From positions 1 through 13,104 of the forward strand of contig CAMPIZ010000015.1 in the NCBI GenBank assembly GCA_946886675.1: a stretch of 13,104 nt of DNA. Reading direction: 5' to 3'. Positions 1 through 8,188 of this stretch are shown here, piece after piece. The notes below the pieces were generated by a model that made no database searches, was not told the DNA's origin, and was given only the letters and a program-made list of their open reading frames with translations. Every line of letters begins with the position of its first letter. The stretch's first letter is position 1. Position numbers and translations under genes: made by a program. Source of the DNA: an uncultured Flavobacterium sp. GTDB taxonomy: Bacteria > Bacteroidota > Bacteroidia > Flavobacteriales > Flavobacteriaceae.

Positions 1-748
1 CAGGAAGGATTGCTTCATACATTGTGTTATCTGCAAAAGCTATAATCTTACTGCCATTGGTTTGATCAGTGGCAAAGAAATCAAATTTTCCGTAGCCGTA
101 CTCATTAATTTTTATAGTATCAACAGGTGTTCCCTTTTTATTGATTAAATAGGCTTCAGATATTTTTACCGGCCTATGGTCGCAGGAAAGGATACTTAGC
201 CCTATGGTATTTGTTTTATGTTGGAGTAATGTACCACTTTGCGGATTTATAGTTATCGTTATATCTGTGGATGGGCTATTTTTGATAAGTGCTGTGGGAA
301 CCTCCTTATCTTCATTTAAAACGTTGATTTCATATAGGGAAGACTCATCTTCTGTAAAATTATTCATCCAGTTAGTATAAAATTGCAGGTAATATCTGCC
401 GGAGGGAAGACTATCCGAAAGTTTAAGGTTTCCTGTAAAACTTCCATGATACGCAAACAAAAGTTGTTTATCAATAATTTGACCCTCTGAATTCAGGAAG
501 TTGCAATATATATTAACAGACTGAAAATAAGGTTCATTTTTACTTCTGTTATAGATGTATCCCTTAAACCATATTTCTTCACCCGTAATAAAGGTAGTCT
601 TATTAAGCTGCACATGCATATTTTCTCTTTGCAAAGAAAAGTAATCGTATACTGATTTAAGGATCAGTTGCTTTTTATCTTGTTGTGCCTGTAGTGCAAC
701 AGGAAAACTAAGAAGTAAAAATAAAGTATGAAGTTTTAGTAGTTTCAT
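1..748 (-). CDS. MG2-type (alpha-2-macroglobulin-like) surface protein, 5' part only
   Basis: This frame is open from an ATG at 748 to the left edge, giving the first 249 residues of a longer protein. A signal peptide is clear: MKLLKLHTLFLLLSFPVALQ, then AQQ. Residues about 40-70 include QLNKTTFITGEEIWFKGYIY, which matches the start of MG2-like domains in large Bacteroidota surface proteins. Such proteins usually run to several hundred residues and are often annotated as MG2-domain or TonB-plug-containing proteins. Further beta-rich segments (LPSGRYYLQFYTNWM at about 110-124) fit stacked Ig-like/MG domains. The function is unknown; an outer-membrane or surface location is inferred. The gene is clearly AT-richer (about 35% GC by eye) than the genes to its right. 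Its promoter should lie in the 130-base gap 749-878, where I see no convincing element. Confidence 0.8.
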   Translation of the reverse strand, partial: MKLLKLHTLFLLLSFPVALQAQQDKKQLILKSVYDYFSLQRENMHVQLNKTTFITGEEIWFKGYIYNRSKNEPYFQSVNIYCNFLNSEGQIIDKQLLFAYHGSFTGNLKLSDSLPSGRYYLQFYTNWMNNFTEDESSLYEINVLNEDKEVPTALIKNSPSTDITITINPQSGTLLQHKTNTIGLSILSCDHRPVKISEAYLINKKGTPVDTIKINEYGYGKFDFFATDQTNGSKIIAFADNTMYEAILP

Positions 749-878
749 TGTGGGTATCTTTAATTTAAGTACAAAAGTGTAATGTCTGATTATCTTAATT
801 GTTGTTCGGTTTGTAAATCCGGGTTGCAATAGCTTTAAAGGCAATTGCGGGGAGCTATCTGATGCAGGTATCGTTTTA

Positions 879-1922
879 TTATGATTTTCCGATAGTGTCC
901 AGTAGAGCGTAATGCCCTTCACGAATTATCTTAAGGGTGGTTGGCTTTTGCGGGTAGCAGCGCATGAATATGTCTGTGAAATGCCTTCCGTAGTGCACCC
1001 TCTCAGGAATATTTGTGCCGACTAAAGGGGTCAGGGAAGCCTCAAAATTGGGTTCGTGGAAGTAAGCGATTGCATAACGCTCCTTCTGGGGATGCAGTGC
1101 GACTTTGTGTGGTGTCGCCATTAGGATATCCCCTGAGATATATTGCAATAAATCGCCCGGGAAAACCGTCAGTACATTATCACGCAATGGCACGCGTCTC
1201 CAGTGCGCATCATTTTTATATTCACCGGCCATGCTCTGTCCCGGTATCCAGTTCTTTTTCCTTTTTTCTTTATGACCCTCAGGGGTTAGCGGGGGGCGGA
1301 TATCCAGCCCGTCAGCCCCGAGTTGTGCGGCAATGACAAGCAGTCCGTAATCGGTATGTGCACCGATTCCTCTGCTGGTGTGCTCTTCGGCTTTCTGAAA
1401 ACGCAAGACCCGCATGTGATGCCATCCCTTGTGGGTCAGATCTGTTAAGGCATCAATCGGGAGCCCCAGGCCAAGTGCTGTGAGTCTCAGCAGTGCGTTG
1501 CCGATCTCACCTGCCATCTCCATAAAAGCCTGCAGATCGTCCCGATAGTCATTATCAGGCCAGGGAACCGGACCGTGACACGGCCAGTTTTGCAGATAAC
1601 GCCTGTCGGTTTTACTGATATCCTGGCAGATGGTAAAAATTTCAGAATAGTCCGGTTCCCCGTCTGTTTGTTCTTCCTGAGAGGCGATGTAGCCACTGTA
1701 GGTGCTCTCGCTGACAAATCCGGATTTCTCCTCCAGGCTTCTGCCAAAGAAAAGTTTACTTCTAGAGAATGCTCTTTGGGTAGTCCGGCTCTGTTCATCT
1801 GTGAGTGCGACCTGGAAAATACCCTGCTGCTGCCAGGTACTCACTATTGATTTCCCCAGGGTCCTATCATTCTCAGTACCGGTGATTACAGATGGGATTG
1901 CAAAGGTAATTAAGCTTTTCAT
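879..1922 (-). CDS. efe: Ethylene-forming-enzyme-like 2-oxoglutarate/Fe(II) dioxygenase
   Basis: A 347-residue protein that aligns nearly end to end with the 350-residue Pseudomonas syringae ethylene-forming enzyme (EFE), with roughly half the residues identical (compared from memory). EFE converts 2-oxoglutarate and O2 to ethylene and CO2 with arginine as cofactor, and in a side reaction hydroxylates arginine, giving guanidine and succinate. The iron triad is present: His189 and Asp191 (GAHTDY) and His272 (TPHKV). Other matches are Arg282 (2-oxoglutarate carboxylate; EFE Arg277), Arg171 in WHHMRVLRF, Glu84 and Thr86 (arginine pocket), Tyr192, Phe288, and Arg321-Cys322-Tyr323. The EFE Val85 equivalent is Gln85. 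The 2-oxoglutarate-pocket residues Leu173, Phe175, Ile186 and Phe254 are also kept. The protein is cytoplasmic, with no signal peptide. The gene is monocistronic or first before the MG2 gene, 130 bases away. Family assignment is strong; ethylene production in this organism is inference. Confidence 0.85.
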   Translation of the reverse strand: MKSLITFAIPSVITGTENDRTLGKSIVSTWQQQGIFQVALTDEQSRTTQRAFSRSKLFFGRSLEEKSGFVSESTYSGYIASQEEQTDGEPDYSEIFTICQDISKTDRRYLQNWPCHGPVPWPDNDYRDDLQAFMEMAGEIGNALLRLTALGLGLPIDALTDLTHKGWHHMRVLRFQKAEEHTSRGIGAHTDYGLLVIAAQLGADGLDIRPPLTPEGHKEKRKKNWIPGQSMAGEYKNDAHWRRVPLRDNVLTVFPGDLLQYISGDILMATPHKVALHPQKERYAIAYFHEPNFEASLTPLVGTNIPERVHYGRHFTDIFMRCYPQKPTTLKIIREGHYALLDTIGKS

Positions 1923-1941
1923 ACGGATCTTTTCTTTTAAG

Positions 1942-1979
1942 CAGGCTAATTTTTTCGGGGTAGCTATAGCTTTAGCCTG
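1942..1979. promoter_or_regulatory. 8-bp inverted repeat in the leader of the EFE-like gene
   Basis: CAGGCTAA at 1942-1949 and TTAGCCTG at 1972-1979 are exact reverse complements separated by 22 bases. The 10-bp palindrome AGCTATAGCT (1962-1971) lies inside the loop, against the right arm. The structure sits 20-57 bases upstream of the EFE-like start codon. It could be a protein-binding operator or a leader hairpin. There is no T-run after it and no recognised riboswitch shape. Confidence 0.4.
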
Positions 1980-2045
1980 TTCCGGTGTACAATCGCCTTT
2001 GATTTACTGCATCAGATAGGGCATTGGGCCACATAGCAGAGTCAT

Positions 2046-2104
2046 AGCCTGAATTAGTAACTGATTTATAAAGTTATTAAGCCTAAAAGGTTCAGCCTGT
2101 ATTA
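2046..2104. repeat. Direct repeat AGCCTGwATTA, two copies
   Basis: AGCCTGAATTA (2046-2056) and AGCCTGTATTA (2094-2104) match at 10 of 11 bases and start 48 bases apart. The core AGCCTG recurs at 1974-1979, in one arm of the inverted repeat nearer the gene. Read toward the EFE-like gene they are TAATwCAGGCT. Recurrence of one motif in a single upstream region suggests regulator sites, but no factor is recognised. Confidence 0.35.
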
Positions 2105-2129
2105 CCCTGATAAAAGTTGTATTATTTCA

Positions 2130-2179
2130 CCCGGGCCGGATTCCAGGCACTATGGCATCGGAGGATCCAACGGCCCGGG
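2130..2179. repeat. GC-rich 9-bp inverted repeat
   Basis: CCCGGGCCG (2130-2138) and CGGCCCGGG (2171-2179) are perfect reverse complements around a 32-base spacer. The repeat lies 45 bases downstream of the beta-barrel gene's stop and upstream of the EFE-like gene. The stem could end leftward transcription, but on the minus strand it is followed by TGAAATAATAC and not by a T-run, so a simple intrinsic terminator is doubtful. Confidence 0.45.
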
Positions 2180-2223
2180 AGCCTTACAGCATTGCTTTTC
2201 TGACCGGGGATAATAGGCTTATA

Positions 2224-4932
2224 CTACAGTTTGTAAGTCAGGGAGAAGAGCAGGTACCTTGGCTGTACCGTATAGGTGGAGGTACTGCTTATAAATTCAC
2301 TGAATTGATCACTGTTAATGGTTTTTGTATTCAGAAGGTTGGTAGCGTTTATCCTGTATTCCAGCGGGCTTTCCGGTTTTTGGTACGAGAGTGAGAGGTC
2401 CAGGAAATCATATTGATTCTTTATCGTTCCTGAAGTGTTACTGTAATTGTAAAACTCATAGTTTGATGTGAGGCTAAAGCCGTTAAGGAAATAGTATTCG
2501 AGCGTGGCAGTAGGCTTGTGGGTCAGGTAGGTAGTATCGGGGTAATTGTTAAAGGACAGGCTATATCCCAGTGTCAGTGAGGGAAGGTTATCAAATACGG
2601 TAGTAATGGCGGCATTGTAGTTTTGGGAGTAGGATTCCTGTGGTGCCTCTGCCCATTGGCCGGATGCTGTATTTTTTTGCATGGCATAGATTTTTTCCCA
2701 CCTAAGGGAGACCCCCAGGTTTATTTTATAGTTTCTGAAAACCGACCTGCCGTATCGCACTGTGGCGCTTAGCCTTTCATTGGCATAATCAGAGTTAAAA
2801 GGTGTCTGGATACTATTGACACCATTAAAGTCAGCCCTGTTGTTAATACTCTCCTTTGTTTTGCTGTAGCGAAGAAAGGCGCTTGTAGTGCTCATGTAAA
2901 AGGCGTTGAAATCCTGATAATACAGCATATGGTTCTGCAACACCGAATTATCCAGCCTGGGGTCACCTTTGTGTAATGTATAATAATTATGAAGGATGCT
3001 GCCTTCTGCCAGTTCTTTAATATCTGTGAAATTATTGGAGAGGTTAAAGCTATAGCGCAGTGAGGTGTTCTTTCCGGCTTTGAAATCAATGCTGGCATCC
3101 GGCAGCAGCCTTGAGAAATTGTTCCGGTACCTTTTCCCGGGCTGGTTGCTTTTTGTATGGTAGTTGTGAAGGGCCACACCGGGATTAAAGGTAAATCTGC
3201 CGGCTGTAAGCTTATAATGCAGTGCGGCAAAGACGTCGTTAAAGGTATAGTCTGCATTATTGTTTGCCGAGGCATCATGTATCGGGTTCCTCAGGCCATT
3301 ATCCAGAAGCTGAAATATATGAGAGTCCAGGTTCTGGTATACATGTGTGGCGGCCAGGGTCAGGTTCAGCTGGTTCAGCCCGTTGATACGGTGATAAAAA
3401 TCCAGTTTGGCATCCAGTTTACTGGTTTTTACAAATTTCTCCTGGCTCAGGTTGTTTTTTTCCTGACCTTGCTGATAATCGGTGAATATAAAGGGCGTTT
3501 GTTCCTGAATGGCATTATAAAGGGGATCCTCATCCTGATAGAGGTGCTGCAGATTCAGGGCAAAGACATTTTTTTTATTCTTCAGTGTATGGTAGAGATC
3601 CAGGTTCTGGCTCACAGAGAAGGGTTTTCTCTTTGTCCTGTCTGAAATCTCCTGGCTCTGGTCATTCTCCGGGTATACGATGGTATTGCTATGGCTGCGA
3701 CTCTTCAGGCGGGAACCTTTTGCAAAGAGATCGTAATTGGCCTCCAGGCGCTCATGGGGCCTGTAGTTGGCATTGACCTTAAAAAGGGCCATGGTATTGC
3801 TGCTATGGGCTGCGGTGCTTTCATATTGCCTTGTATTGATTTCTCCTGTCCGGTTATCAAGCAATGCATTTACCGTTGTGTTTTCGCTGTCTATAGTATT
3901 TGAGGAAAGGATACCGAAACCGCTGAAGCGCCATTTACTACCGGGATTAAAACTAAAATTCGCCGCATTAAAGCGCGAGTAGATCTCTTTAGCTTTATTG
4001 TTCTGTATAAACAGGGCTTCCAGTTCGGGCGGGATGACAGCAAAGTTACTTCGGCCTTTTCTCATGATATCCTTAAGCCCTCCGGAGAGTTTAAAATAAT
4101 CCTGGAAGGTAAAGGGTATTGCTCCGGTATTGTTTTGATTCCCAATATAATTCAGGCTATATTCAGGGCTGTAATAAAACAGGCTGGGGTTTAGTACATA
4201 ACGTTTATAAGGGCCTGCAGCGGCGGTTAGATCACCAAACCAAAAGTTCTTTTTTCCTTCTTTCAGCTTAATGTTCATGGCAACATTATCCTGATTGTCC
4301 TCCACATCTTTAAGCTGGCTGACCTGGTTATAATTGCTTAGCACTTCTATTTTATCTACGGCGTCGGCAGGGATGTTTTTGCTCCCGATTTTGGTATCAC
4401 CGTCAAAAAAGGCATTGCCTTCCACCATGAGCTTGGATACCGGTTTACCCTGAGCAAAAATTTCACCATCGGGTGTTACCTCAATACCGGGGAGTTTTTT
4501 AAGTACATCGCCGAGTTTTCTTTCGCTACCGTTGGTGAAGGCCCCGGCATTATAGGTAAGGGTATCCCCGTTAATCTTTACCGGTATTTCATGTACAATT
4601 TCAAGGCCCTGCAGTAGTGTGCCTTCCCGCAGTTTTATTTCCCGTACTATATTTTTCCCGGCCGTGGTAAGTTCAAATTCACCGGGCTGAAAACCTATAT
4701 AGGAAGCCTGTATCCTATAGGTGGTATTATTTTTCAAAACCAGTGAGAATTTGCCTTCCTCACTGGTTATGCTGTATGCTTCGGTTTCATTGGTATTATT
4801 GTTTACAGCCAGTACATTAGCCATTTCCAGAGGCTGGCCCAGGGTGTCTTTTACAAAACCTTCAAACCTTATGTTTTGTGCCCTCAGCCCTGCAAAAGCG
4901 AAGAGGATGAGCAATAAGATACTGTACTTCAT
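2224..4932 (-). CDS. Outer-membrane beta-barrel protein with carboxypeptidase-like and plug domains (TonB-receptor-like)
   Basis: A 902-residue outer-membrane protein. Residues 1-19 are a signal peptide ending LRAQ. Residues about 21-105 form a carboxypeptidase-regulatory-like Ig fold (FEGFVKDTLGQPLEMANV, ITSEEGKFSLVL, ASYIGFQPG). Residues about 110-230 form a plug-like domain (LGDVLKKLPGIEVTPDGEI, DAVDKIEVLSNYN). The remainder is a long beta-barrel ending YLLFSLTYKL, as expected for outer-membrane insertion. This layout is the Bacteroidota group often labelled outer membrane beta-barrel family protein, related to TonB-dependent receptors. I see no clear TonB box, so energised import is uncertain and the substrate is unknown. 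It starts 5 bases after the GLPGLI gene stops, so the two are almost certainly cotranscribed. Confidence 0.88.
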   Translation of the reverse strand: MKYSILLLILFAFAGLRAQNIRFEGFVKDTLGQPLEMANVLAVNNNTNETEAYSITSEEGKFSLVLKNNTTYRIQASYIGFQPGEFELTTAGKNIVREIKLREGTLLQGLEIVHEIPVKINGDTLTYNAGAFTNGSERKLGDVLKKLPGIEVTPDGEIFAQGKPVSKLMVEGNAFFDGDTKIGSKNIPADAVDKIEVLSNYNQVSQLKDVEDNQDNVAMNIKLKEGKKNFWFGDLTAAAGPYKRYVLNPSLFYYSPEYSLNYIGNQNNTGAIPFTFQDYFKLSGGLKDIMRKGRSNFAVIPPELEALFIQNNKAKEIYSRFNAANFSFNPGSKWRFSGFGILSSNTIDSENTTVNALLDNRTGEINTRQYESTAAHSSNTMALFKVNANYRPHERLEANYDLFAKGSRLKSRSHSNTIVYPENDQSQEISDRTKRKPFSVSQNLDLYHTLKNKKNVFALNLQHLYQDEDPLYNAIQEQTPFIFTDYQQGQEKNNLSQEKFVKTSKLDAKLDFYHRINGLNQLNLTLAATHVYQNLDSHIFQLLDNGLRNPIHDASANNNADYTFNDVFAALHYKLTAGRFTFNPGVALHNYHTKSNQPGKRYRNNFSRLLPDASIDFKAGKNTSLRYSFNLSNNFTDIKELAEGSILHNYYTLHKGDPRLDNSVLQNHMLYYQDFNAFYMSTTSAFLRYSKTKESINNRADFNGVNSIQTPFNSDYANERLSATVRYGRSVFRNYKINLGVSLRWEKIYAMQKNTASGQWAEAPQESYSQNYNAAITTVFDNLPSLTLGYSLSFNNYPDTTYLTHKPTATLEYYFLNGFSLTSNYEFYNYSNTSGTIKNQYDFLDLSLSYQKPESPLEYRINATNLLNTKTINSDQFSEFISSTSTYTVQPRYLLFSLTYKL

Positions 4933-4937
4933 AGTAA

Positions 4938-5789
4938 CTATTCTCTTGTAATTTGAATATAGGTTCCATTGCGGCTATTGGAAAATCTTTTTTGCATTTC
5001 CTGTTGTTTTTCCAGCAAGATCTTCATGTACTGCTCCTGAGTTACCTTTTTGCCTTTTTTGGGTGCTTCTATAGCGGGTCTGTCTTTAGGGTTCAGTACA
5101 ATCTTCGAACATAGAATGGTCTGGTAACCATCCTGGAGTTCGAGAATAAGTCCGGGAAGCCCTCCATATCCGGCAGGACCGAACTGAACCGGTATATCGC
5201 GGGTATACCACGCGGTTATGGTAAGGTCTTCGGGCTCCTTATCCATGGTAGCTCCAATGACGGTGATTTTATTTGCCGGAATAGTGTAGGTAGCCTTATA
5301 ACAGGTGTATTCGCCAATTTTTTTGGTCTGATTGGAAAGTACCCACGGATATTTACTGATGGAGTCGGTTATCAGGAAAGCCTTATCTAAGCTCTGTGTT
5401 TCCCTGACTGTAATTTTGTCTTTAAGGTTGGTATAGTACCTTGTTTTGTTCAGCGCGGATCCTGAGCTATTGAACTGTATTCTGACATTACTGTTAATAT
5501 CATTATTGTTAATATCTGGGGCCAGTGCAGGGTTTTCGTTTTTTTCATATAAAGAGGCCGTTTTACTGAAATTAAGGGTATAGGTATCCTGTCCGGCTTT
5601 TTTGAGCTGCTCCTTAATAAGGTCCTGCATATCTTCGGGAATATCCTGAGCCTGATCTTCCGTGAGGTCAAATTCGGGAACGTTTAGTTTTGTCTGATAG
5701 GTTGCCGTTCCGTAAAAGTCCTGCCCTTGTGTCAGGGGACTTAGTAAGAGTGCTGTCAGGACAATTGTCTGTACAAATAAATTTTTCAT
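4938..5789 (-). CDS. GLPGLI family periplasmic protein
   Basis: A 283-residue exported protein with the family-defining motif exactly kept: GLPGLILEL at residues 210-218, preceded by GPAGYG. The chosen ATG at 5789 starts a good signal peptide (MKNLFVQTIVLTALLLSPLT, then QGQ). The in-frame ATG at 5816 would put nine extra polar residues before it and is less likely. The upstream WYTRDIPVQFGP segment (about 194-205) is also typical. The family is known only from Bacteroidota and has no established biochemical role. Members often sit beside outer-membrane beta-barrel genes, as here, with a 5-base gap to the next gene. A periplasmic or outer-membrane-associated role with that partner is inferred. 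The gene diverges from a two-component system with probable regulator boxes between them. Confidence 0.9.
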   Translation of the reverse strand: MKNLFVQTIVLTALLLSPLTQGQDFYGTATYQTKLNVPEFDLTEDQAQDIPEDMQDLIKEQLKKAGQDTYTLNFSKTASLYEKNENPALAPDINNNDINSNVRIQFNSSGSALNKTRYYTNLKDKITVRETQSLDKAFLITDSISKYPWVLSNQTKKIGEYTCYKATYTIPANKITVIGATMDKEPEDLTITAWYTRDIPVQFGPAGYGGLPGLILELQDGYQTILCSKIVLNPKDRPAIEAPKKGKKVTQEQYMKILLEKQQEMQKRFSNSRNGTYIQITRE

Positions 5790-5813
5790 GATAAGAAATG
5801 TTTTTGTTTGCAG

Positions 5814-5821
5814 CAAAGTAA
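5814..5821 (-). promoter_or_regulatory. Possible -7 element for the GLPGLI/beta-barrel operon
   Basis: On the minus strand this reads TTACTTTG, one base off the Bacteroidota -7 consensus TAnnTTTG, and lies 25-32 bases upstream of the ATG at 5789. No TTG -33 element is found at the usual 17-23 base distance. That place is taken by the GTTAA box at 5842-5858. Confidence 0.4.
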
Positions 5822-6009: not shown

Positions 6010-7506
6010 ATGAGAAAAAGCAATCAGAAAGGCGTGGTTTTTTTTATAGGGACGGTTATATTGGTGACCCTGGCCATACAGATCTATTGGAATATCAATA
6101 ATTACAGGGCCAACAAGGCTGTGCTTACCAATGAGGTGCTCTCGGTGCTTACAAGCAGTGTGGACTCCTATTATAGTGAGCTGATACGAACGGATATTAT
6201 CACAATAGATAGGTCCGCCACTGTCTTTCCTTCAGCCGGTAGTCATACAATTACTATGGAAGCTGATTCCATGGAAGATTTAGCGCATGTTCTTGACAGT
6301 ATTAAAAAGCAGCACGGTCTGGAAGATTCAACGGTGATAACCACTGTGTCCGGGACAGGGAGAATCAAGCCGGTAATGTTTCAGGGGAACCTATTCAATG
6401 CTGAGCAGGTAATTACACAGGCAGACCGCAGCCTCACTACCCTGTCCCTGGACAGCCTTTCGCGCCTTACACAGGCAGCCACCAAGGTGATTGCCTCTAT
6501 GTTTAACCAGGATATTGACCTTAAGAAGCTCTCGGGATATGTTAAAGAGGAGTTGGGCAGTAAAGGTTTCGACTTTGACTTTGCCCTCTCCCAGCTCAGG
6601 GGAGCTAAGGTGATACATACTTTTAATGATCCGGAAGATCCAAAATACAGCCTTTCGGTTGCTTCCGGCTCAGCCTATCTCGCGCGCGCGAGCACCGTCA
6701 GGATCAGTTTTCCCGATATTACCCTGCTGGTTTTGAAGAAGAGTTTTTTAGGATTATTCTTATCGTTACTATTGTCAGTCTTTACCATAGCCTGTCTTTT
6801 TTACCTGCTTAAGATCATCAATGAGCAAAAGCAGATCATGCTTAGCAAGAATGATTTTATAAGCAATATCTCCCATGAGCTTAAAACGCCCATCACCACT
6901 TCTATGAGTGCCCTGGAAGGCATACAGCATTTCAACAGGGCGCAGGATCCGGAGAAGACCCGGAAATACCTTACTATTGCATCAGGGCAGCTCAGAAGGC
7001 TCAGTATCCTGGTGGAGAAGATCCTGGAGACCGTATCATTGGATACCAACAGGCTCACCCTTGTAAAAGAAGATGTTGACCTTACCGGGCTGGTCGGTGC
7101 TGTGGTGGAAAAGCAGCGGATCAATACTACTAAGGAGATCATAGTGGATTCCCCCGGGGTAGCCGTAAGTATTATGGCGGATCCGTTCCATTTGGAAAAT
7201 GTGGTTTCCAATATTGTGGAAAATGCTATAAAGTACGGCGGTGAGAGGATTAGGGTCACAATAAGGCCGGGCTACCACGGGGCCGATGTGTTTATAGCCG
7301 ATAATGGAAAAACCATAGAGCGGCACCAAGGTGAGAAGATATTTGAGAAATTTTACAGGATACCGACCCACAACCAGCATGATATCAAAGGATACGGTAT
7401 TGGTTTGTATTATTCCAGGATTATAATTGAAAAACATAAGGGCACACTGGTGTGGCTTGCAGAGACCCGGGAGACTACCTTTAAAATTACCCTACCCTAT
7501 GAATGA
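6010..7506 (+). CDS. Membrane sensor histidine kinase
   Basis: A 498-residue inner-membrane kinase. Membrane segments lie at about 9-28 and 244-268 and enclose a periplasmic sensor region of about 215 residues with no recognisable domain. The HisKA H-box is FISNISHELKTPITTSMSAL with phospho-acceptor His289. The ATPase domain shows the N-box (NVVSNIVENAIKYG, Asn401 and Asn405), a slightly altered G1 box (DNGKTI at 431-436 where DxGxGI is usual), the F-box EKIFEKFYR and the G2 box GYGIGL (461-466). No HAMP domain is apparent between the second membrane segment and the H-box. The stop codon overlaps the response-regulator start (ATGAATGA), so the two are translationally coupled. The divergent GLPGLI/beta-barrel pair is the likely target or input partner. 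Confidence 0.93.
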   Translation: MRKSNQKGVVFFIGTVILVTLAIQIYWNINNYRANKAVLTNEVLSVLTSSVDSYYSELIRTDIITIDRSATVFPSAGSHTITMEADSMEDLAHVLDSIKKQHGLEDSTVITTVSGTGRIKPVMFQGNLFNAEQVITQADRSLTTLSLDSLSRLTQAATKVIASMFNQDIDLKKLSGYVKEELGSKGFDFDFALSQLRGAKVIHTFNDPEDPKYSLSVASGSAYLARASTVRISFPDITLLVLKKSFLGLFLSLLLSVFTIACLFYLLKIINEQKQIMLSKNDFISNISHELKTPITTSMSALEGIQHFNRAQDPEKTRKYLTIASGQLRRLSILVEKILETVSLDTNRLTLVKEDVDLTGLVGAVVEKQRINTTKEIIVDSPGVAVSIMADPFHLENVVSNIVENAIKYGGERIRVTIRPGYHGADVFIADNGKTIERHQGEKIFEKFYRIPTHNQHDIKGYGIGLYYSRIIIEKHKGTLVWLAETRETTFKITLPYE

Positions 7507-8188
7507 TAGTATAAAGATCTTACTGGCCGAGGATGAGCCGTCACTGGCACTTATCATCAAAGAAAGCCTGGAGACCAGGAATTTTCAGGTAATTGTGTGT
7601 GCCGATGGCCAGCAGGCACTGCAGCAATACAGGGAGGAGGCCCCGCAGCTGCTGGTGCTGGATGTTATGATGCCCAAAACCGATGGTTTTGCCCTGGCCA
7701 GGGAGATAAGGGCGGGAGATAAAAAAACGCCTATTATCTTTCTGACTGCCAAATCCCAAACCAAAGATGTGGTGGAAGGCTTCCATTATGGCGGCAATGA
7801 CTATCTGAAGAAGCCTTTCAGTATGGAGGAGCTTATAGTCAGGATATATGCGCTTTTAAACCGGGTGGGGGGTAGTGCCCTGCAGGAGCCGGATCAGGAG
7901 ATCGCAATTGGCAGTTACCGGTTTGACCCTACAAGGCAGACACTTACCTGTGGGCCTGCTTCGGTGCCCCTGACCCATAGGGAGACCCAGGTGCTCAGAC
8001 ATCTCTACCAGAACAGGAACCAGATGGTAACGCGCTCTTTTATATTGACCGAAATATGGGGCCAGGATGACTTTTTCAGTGGCAGGAGCCTGGATGTGTT
8101 TATCTCAAAGCTCCGCAGGAAATTAAGTGAGGACCCCCATGTGCAGATTATCAACAGCCGCGGCTTTGGCTATAAGCTGATTTGTTAG
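7499..8188 (+). CDS. OmpR/PhoB-family response regulator
   Basis: A 229-residue cytoplasmic regulator starting at the ATG that overlaps the kinase stop by 8 bases. The open frame extends upstream to 7427, but only inside the kinase gene. The receiver domain (about 5-120) has the acidic pair Glu11-Asp12 (LLAEDEPS), phospho-acceptor Asp55 (LVLDVMMPKTDGF), Thr83 (FLTAK) and Lys105 (YLKKPF), so it should be phosphorylated by the preceding kinase. The C-terminal part (about 130-229) is an OmpR-type winged helix, with LTHRETQVLRHL, the RSLDVFISKLRRKL recognition-helix region and RGFGYKL at the end. The GTTAA direct repeats at 5842-5868 and 5955-5971 are its probable sites. It is convergent with the VOC gene across 57 bases that hold no clear terminator. 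Confidence 0.94.
   Translation: MNDSIKILLAEDEPSLALIIKESLETRNFQVIVCADGQQALQQYREEAPQLLVLDVMMPKTDGFALAREIRAGDKKTPIIFLTAKSQTKDVVEGFHYGGNDYLKKPFSMEELIVRIYALLNRVGGSALQEPDQEIAIGSYRFDPTRQTLTCGPASVPLTHRETQVLRHLYQNRNQMVTRSFILTEIWGQDDFFSGRSLDVFISKLRRKLSEDPHVQIINSRGFGYKLIC

Follow-up and report, generated by a model that had tools for sequence, protein, structure and literature searches.

The window analysed here, the whole stretch of 13,104 nucleotides of contig CAMPIZ010000015.1 (GenBank assembly GCA_946886675.1, uncultured Flavobacterium sp.), carries what sequence comparison identifies as a real, well-conserved gene of the ethylene-forming enzyme (EFE) family in a Flavobacterium-like genome. Its product probably forms ethylene, with minor guanidine and 1-pyrroline-5-carboxylate (P5C), both reactions being assigned by analogy with the enzyme of Pseudomonas savastanoi (syringae) pv. 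phaseolicola PK2 (PsEFE).

The gene occupies positions 879..1922 on the minus strand, a strand that the initial annotation did not state. Its reading frame, with the ATG at 1922 and the stop at 879, is intact and specifies 347 amino acids; the plus-strand frame over the same interval is interrupted by stops. The protein aligns with PsEFE over residues 2–344 (404 bits, E 6e-120, 54% identity over 339 aligned positions), a match that by its score is far above chance and that bears out the end-to-end correspondence proposed in the initial annotation. It contains the Pfam domains DIOX_N and 2OG-FeII_Oxy, and no NCBIfam model matched it at E 0.01. Among sequences with solved structures, PsEFE entries rank first (up to 404 bits), ahead of Penicillium digitatum EFE (315 bits), and the next entries score far lower (Anc357, 71 bits; PaIPNS, 62 bits). 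An AlphaFold2 model of the protein (predicted local distance difference test 93.8) superposes on arginine-bound EFE (PDB 5V2Y) with 1.4 Å over 341 residues, and the predicted fold is that of the arginine-bound enzyme. A database protein from ENA data (P0001; longest contig 3,088 bases) is identical at 346 of 347 residues, although it is perhaps not an independent sample.

Iron, 2-oxoglutarate and arginine sites

Residues were first compared with those of PsEFE and 119 homologues in one alignment and then across another of 226 rows, of which 11 belong to the clade described below (including two pairs of duplicates or near-duplicates) and 215 do not. Numbering follows PsEFE; H268, R277, R316, C317, Y318, M313 and E215 correspond to His272, Arg282, Arg321, Cys322, Tyr323, Ile318 and E219 of the window protein. 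The iron triad (H189, D191 and H268) is complete and is kept in all 226 rows. Both ligands of the 2-oxoglutarate carboxylate, R171 and R277, are unchanged, and the pocket residues L173, F175, I186, V196, A198, L206, V270, A279, A281, F283 and E285 are all as in PsEFE; ancestral reconstruction has tied ethylene formation to a hydrophobic pocket (PMC12329707; this and the other papers are cited from extracts of their text). A one-residue insert precedes R277, and F278 is replaced by tyrosine.

Eight of the 11 arginine-site positions are the same as in PsEFE (E84, T86, D91, Y192, F314, R316, C317 and Y318), and the only changes are V85Q, A87D and M313I. All ten residues named in the initial annotation (His189, Asp191, His272, Arg282, Glu84, Thr86, Tyr192, Arg321, Cys322 and Tyr323) are thus present under the numbering it used; its account of the changes was right about glutamine at position 85 but overlooked A87D, M313I, Y207D and the β11 loop, and did not mention F278Y, P93S or C280I. 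Aspartate at 87 occurs in 4/11 clade rows and 14/215 others, and position 313 in the clade is methionine in seven rows, isoleucine in two and valine in two. Of the 23 ligand-site positions taken from the literature, two are changed between the window protein and PsEFE and none between it and its relative P0002, compared with 153 of 314 (Fisher p 0.00012) and 82 of 324 (Fisher p 0.0036) of the remaining positions, respectively.

The weight given in the initial annotation to V85Q, as a change that could alter arginine binding or the ethylene-to-hydroxylation ratio, is misplaced. Glutamine at 85 is found in 7/11 clade rows as opposed to 5/215 others, and the contact of V85 with arginine runs through its backbone carbonyl, according to simulations of two compromised variants (PMC11025135). 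Because Q85 is mainly a trait of the clade and the contact is of this kind, a large effect of V85Q is unlikely. EFEs with isoleucine or leucine at 85 are active (PMC9101411); a reconstructed enzyme with lysine at both 85 and 86 performs poorly (PMC12329707). Better leads are offered by Y207D, by the lid insert and by M313I.

A branch shared with Erwinia and Burkholderia homologues

Three trees were built, a quick one of 80 rows and two careful ones of 67 and 46 rows, the last including four outgroup rows; the Penicillium digitatum and Ralstonia EFEs were left out of them. In all three, the window protein groups at full support with the database proteins P0002 (77% identity) and P0003 (69%), and this trio sits in a nine-sequence branch with P0004–P0008 and P0010, the named members of which are from Erwinia psidii and Burkholderia ubonensis (the 80-row tree shows ten rows, the E. 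psidii protein having been entered twice). The window protein falls with the EFEs and apart from the PaIPNS-like oxygenases (100/100 branch), a placement that, with the predicted fold, supports the earlier assignment to the EFE family rather than to another group of 2-oxoglutarate oxygenases. Free trees nest the branch among other EFEs, with Shimodaira–Hasegawa-like approximate likelihood ratio support of 85–86 for 80 rows and up to 97/92 for 46 rows, but the approximately unbiased test does not reject an alternative that unites the remaining EFEs in a single clade (p-AU 0.41, 46 rows), so that either a sister or a nested position would fit. Branch members are 53–59% identical to PsEFE, whereas the five newly characterized EFEs of PMC9101411 were chosen at 60–95% identity and are therefore expected to lie outside it.

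The E. psidii homologue follows UmuDC-like open reading frames (ORFs), beyond which lies an aconitase-like ORF, and the 3 kb that follow the homologue contain no listed ORF of at least 120 amino acids; this context gives no explanation of function. Of 60 genomes drawn from the family of E. psidii, the one match at E 1e-40 was E. psidii itself. An Erwinia mallotivora homologue, missed in that draw, is present as two overlapping pieces in a draft genome (locus L056, 8001-9001). A clustered regularly interspaced short palindromic repeats (CRISPR) array with CRISPR-DR4 repeats lies ~5 kb from the E. psidii EFE gene (L015, 2105-2672).

Distribution and EFEs in Bacteroidota

Scanning 84,980 species genomes gave at least 593 stretches, 577 of them encoding a relative, and the best 79 loci were examined. 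Fifty-seven of these are EFE-like (46–62% identity in the best segment) and span Actinomycetota, Myxococcota, Cyanobacteriota and Pseudomonadota, a spread at odds with the initial picture of an enzyme centred on Pseudomonas, Ralstonia and Penicillium. By record title, none of the best 79 loci is from Bacteroidota. Searching 5.8 billion proteins with a profile (7,998 candidates scored, 981 hits, best 120 inspected) revealed a canonical EFE in Rapidithrix thailandica, a marine gliding bacterium (P0276; Bacteroidota, Flammeovirgaceae), which has 65% identity to PsEFE, I85 and no lid insert. The description of the host as an unexpected lineage therefore holds in that the phylum is unusual for EFE, but a precedent exists.

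A single clade of the Rapidithrix EFE and the window trio is rejected in the 67-row tree (p-AU 0.00016), which suggests that EFE arrived in Bacteroidota at least twice. The lineage represented in the window would have obtained its gene by horizontal transfer, separately from that of Rapidithrix. No relative was found on viral contigs (16 pattern matches), and the best match on plasmids reached only 36%. In two EFE loci of Pseudomonas, a CrcZ small RNA gene is less than 6 kb away (L038, 2145-2544; L055, 7389-7791, at a distance of ~0.2 kb in L055), and the vicinity of CrcZ is perhaps a common insertion neighbourhood.

Searches of the open-licence literature brought up no paper whose title or opening of the abstract reports an EFE for Bacteroidota or Bacteroidetes, Flavobacterium, Rapidithrix or Erwinia psidii. 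The extracts of PMC5780703 and PMC7002392 mention EFE and either Bacteroidetes or Flavobacterium without linking them.

Gene neighbourhood and host

The annotated features of the left and central parts of the window are as follows.

1..748, minus strand: 5′ part of the downstream gene, running off the window; G+C 0.337; no Pfam family
879..1922, minus strand: EFE-family Fe(II)/2-oxoglutarate oxygenase, 347 amino acids, assigned by homology, Pfam and predicted fold
1923..2223, minus strand: upstream gap of 301 bases
2224..4932, minus strand: 902-amino-acid protein with a carboxypeptidase-regulatory-like domain, of outer-membrane type; host marker
4938..5816, minus strand: GLPGLI (Porph_ging) family protein; host marker
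6010..7506, plus strand: sensor histidine kinase; main host evidence
7499..8188, plus strand: response regulator, G+C 0.50; best NCBIfam match RprY, below cut-off

The best named match of the histidine kinase is from Flavobacterium alkalisoli (62%), with F. rakeshii at 57%, and the genes around it encode GLPGLI, carboxypeptidase-regulatory and DUF5686 proteins. Six plasmid records, every one of them from Bacteroidota, match the left partial gene at 20–34% identity; the window itself matched no plasmid. Judged by these neighbours, the host is Flavobacterium-like, as the initial annotation had it.

Between the EFE gene and its neighbours lie 301 bases on the upstream side and 130 on the downstream side, gaps of a size that gives no sign of an operon, and nothing marks the gene for the 902-amino-acid protein as an operon partner. 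TAnnTTTG is a Bacteroidota-type −7 motif; it was not found in 1923..2223, nor was any Rfam family, and promoter and terminator scans of 600-2400 stayed at chance level.

The codon usage of the EFE gene fits that of the other genes in the window (distance 0.157; control pieces 0.148 ± 0.016, 29% of the 374 lying at this distance or beyond), and no foreign codon usage is seen; any transfer would thus be old or have come from a donor with similar codon preferences. The left partial gene (1-748) has a G+C content well below the rest of the window, 0.293 at third positions.

A mobile-element origin is unsupported: the window contains no tRNA, and the nine neighbouring proteins scanned include no transposase family. 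A perfect 13-bp inverted repeat, 855-867 (plus) and 2007-2019 (minus), lies in the gaps flanking the gene, and its score was reached in 0 of 300 gap shuffles; the window holds four non-palindromic 13-mer pairs within 3 kb, this pair included, and it is possibly a product of chance. For a direct repeat matching at 17 of 20 positions (818-837 and 1955-1974) in the same gaps, 5 of 300 shuffles did as well.

Predicted function and alternatives

If the enzyme acts as PsEFE does, arginine would be bound via E84, T86, Y192 and R321 (window numbering), and 2-oxoglutarate would then chelate the iron; with O2, one route would fragment 2-oxoglutarate to ethylene and three CO2, and the other would yield succinate and C5-hydroxyarginine, the latter giving guanidine and P5C (PMC10467617, PMC11345546). 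The partition between the two reactions is not readable from the sequence, and the altered lid loop of the clade, together with Y207D, is most likely the source of any shift in it. In PsEFE, the β11 loop holds E215, a residue credited with shielding the active site; its replacement by alanine lowers both products (PMC12329707).

Several observations weigh against ethylene formation by this protein. Its branch is long (0.53–0.62 changes per site), and Y207D (11/11 clade rows, 0/215 others) and four extra residues in the β11 lid loop beside E215 set it apart; we know of no characterized or assayed member of the nine-sequence branch. E215 itself is retained, as E219, in a loop that is present and four residues longer than that of PsEFE, and M230E, P242L and F257Y are further marks of the branch, each in at least 10 of the 11 clade rows and in less than 1% of rows elsewhere. 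In the arginine site, the isoleucine at 313 contrasts with methionine in 215/215 non-clade rows. The pocket-lining changes P93S and C280I also depart from PsEFE; serine at 93 and a residue other than cysteine at 280 (211/215 each) are the usual family state outside the clade.

Family membership in itself is no guarantee either: a Penicillium chrysogenum homologue makes no ethylene (PMC4202696), and Anc124, a reconstructed enzyme with 56% identity to PsEFE, yields only traces (PMC12329707). At ten positions linked to ethylene formation (PMC4202696), the window protein is producer-like at three (L22, V172 and A199), non-producer-like at one (F278Y) and neither at six, with F278Y having had no significant effect as a single PsEFE mutation in that study. 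Nor does the neighbourhood point to guanidine: the window contains no guanidine riboswitch (two sub-threshold matches both belong to other families), and scanning nine neighbouring proteins gave no match to a guanidine-handling family. Likewise, 15 RNA matches at gathering score in 8 of the 57 EFE-like loci include no guanidine riboswitch, being CrcZ, C4-type, isrK and CRISPR repeats.

An enzyme of this family might have specialized as a hydroxylase of arginine, or of another guanidino compound, that yields mainly guanidine and P5C and little ethylene, the shift being brought about by the lid loop, Y207D, A87D and M313I. The clade-specific lid and Y207D fit such a protein, as do the near-site changes at 85, 87 and 313, and the balance between ethylene formation and hydroxylation is easily tipped, given that the single PsEFE changes A198V, D191E, F283x and E285x nearly abolish ethylene and spare some arginine hydroxylation (PMC10467617). 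However, A198, D191, F283 and E285 are all unchanged in the window protein, and active reconstructed ancestors keep both activities, mostly at ratios near those of living EFEs (PMC12329707); we consider such specialization unlikely. Still less probable is an oxygenase that mainly converts 2-oxoglutarate to succinate in an uncoupled reaction, or is inactive, and that survives by chance or for another substrate. Several reconstructed relatives behave in this way, but the 2-oxoglutarate pockets of Anc124, Anc317 and Anc357 are more hydrophilic, R316 is replaced by lysine in the latter two, and Node 385 has lysine at both 85 and 86 (PMC12329707), none of which holds for the window protein, and its ligand-site positions are conserved relative to its diverged sister P0002.

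That an EFE gene of another bacterium was stitched into a flavobacterial contig during assembly would accord with its G+C content of 0.50, compared with 0.34 and 0.44 for the left and right partial genes. Yet the response regulator likewise reaches 0.50, codon usage is that of the window's other genes, both flanks look like Bacteroidota and the near-identical P0001 is present in ENA data (with the reservation on independence made above), so that such an artefact is highly improbable. Formation of ethylene with minor guanidine and P5C remains the probable function.

The enzyme family is well known; ethylene-forming activity would be new in this branch and in a host of this kind. If the enzyme is active, 2-oxoglutarate-dependent formation of ethylene, a plant hormone, would extend to bacteria like Flavobacterium, a genus common in soil, in water and on plants. 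A natural enzyme with an altered lid would also be available for asking what sets ethylene against guanidine, and a guanidine source would be added in a phylum that a review of guanidine biology does not mention: the extracted main text contains 0 occurrences of Bacteroid- or Flavobacter- (PMC12186494). The features that enable ethylene formation by EFE are still uncertain, according to a 2023 review (PMC10467617). A broader scenario, which is conceivable though speculative, is that flavobacteria, Erwinia and Burkholderia have in common a second type of EFE, whose ethylene:guanidine ratio has been reset by remodelling of the arginine loop and of the lid that covers the 2-oxoglutarate pocket (Y207D and the four residues inserted next to E215), and that horizontal transfer brought EFE into Bacteroidota on at least two occasions, providing rhizosphere or aquatic flavobacteria with a hormone gas and a source of guanidine.

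Comparison with known systems

Relative to PsEFE (PDB 5V2Y and 6VP4), the window protein has V85Q, A87D, M313I, Y207D, F278Y, P93S and C280I, the four-residue β11 insert, the one-residue insert before R277 and a host from Bacteroidota. The ethylene-producing P. digitatum Pd1 enzyme (PDB 9EIR and 9EIS) is 46% identical over aligned residues and has I85, N317 and F280 (PMC12329707, PMC12060275). PaIPNS and Anc357 (PDB 6JYV and 9OVH) share the fold class and iron triad with the window protein and form essentially no ethylene, the trace from PaIPNS being ~0.1% of that from PsEFE; the lysine at R316 that marks PaIPNS-like proteins is replaced by R321 in the window protein (PMC12329707). Plant homoarginine 6-hydroxylase (Din11, 2-ODD-C23) has threonine at R316, threonine at C317 and lysine at M313 (PMC12329707), where the window protein has R321, C322 and I318. 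The plant ethylene enzyme 1-aminocyclopropane-1-carboxylate oxidase is not the closest relative (22–23 bits over ~90 residues, compared with 404 bits for EFE).

The Rapidithrix enzyme is from the same phylum and has the PsEFE residue at all 26 ligand-site and neighbouring positions checked except I85. Unlike the window protein, it is canonical, lacks the lid insert and lies elsewhere in the tree. By contrast, the homologues from E. psidii (P0008, L015; Gammaproteobacteria) and B. ubonensis (P0010; Betaproteobacteria), which are 54–55% identical to the window protein and have I85 and V313 in the former and P279 in the latter, resemble it in belonging to the same branch and in carrying both Y207D and the lid insert.
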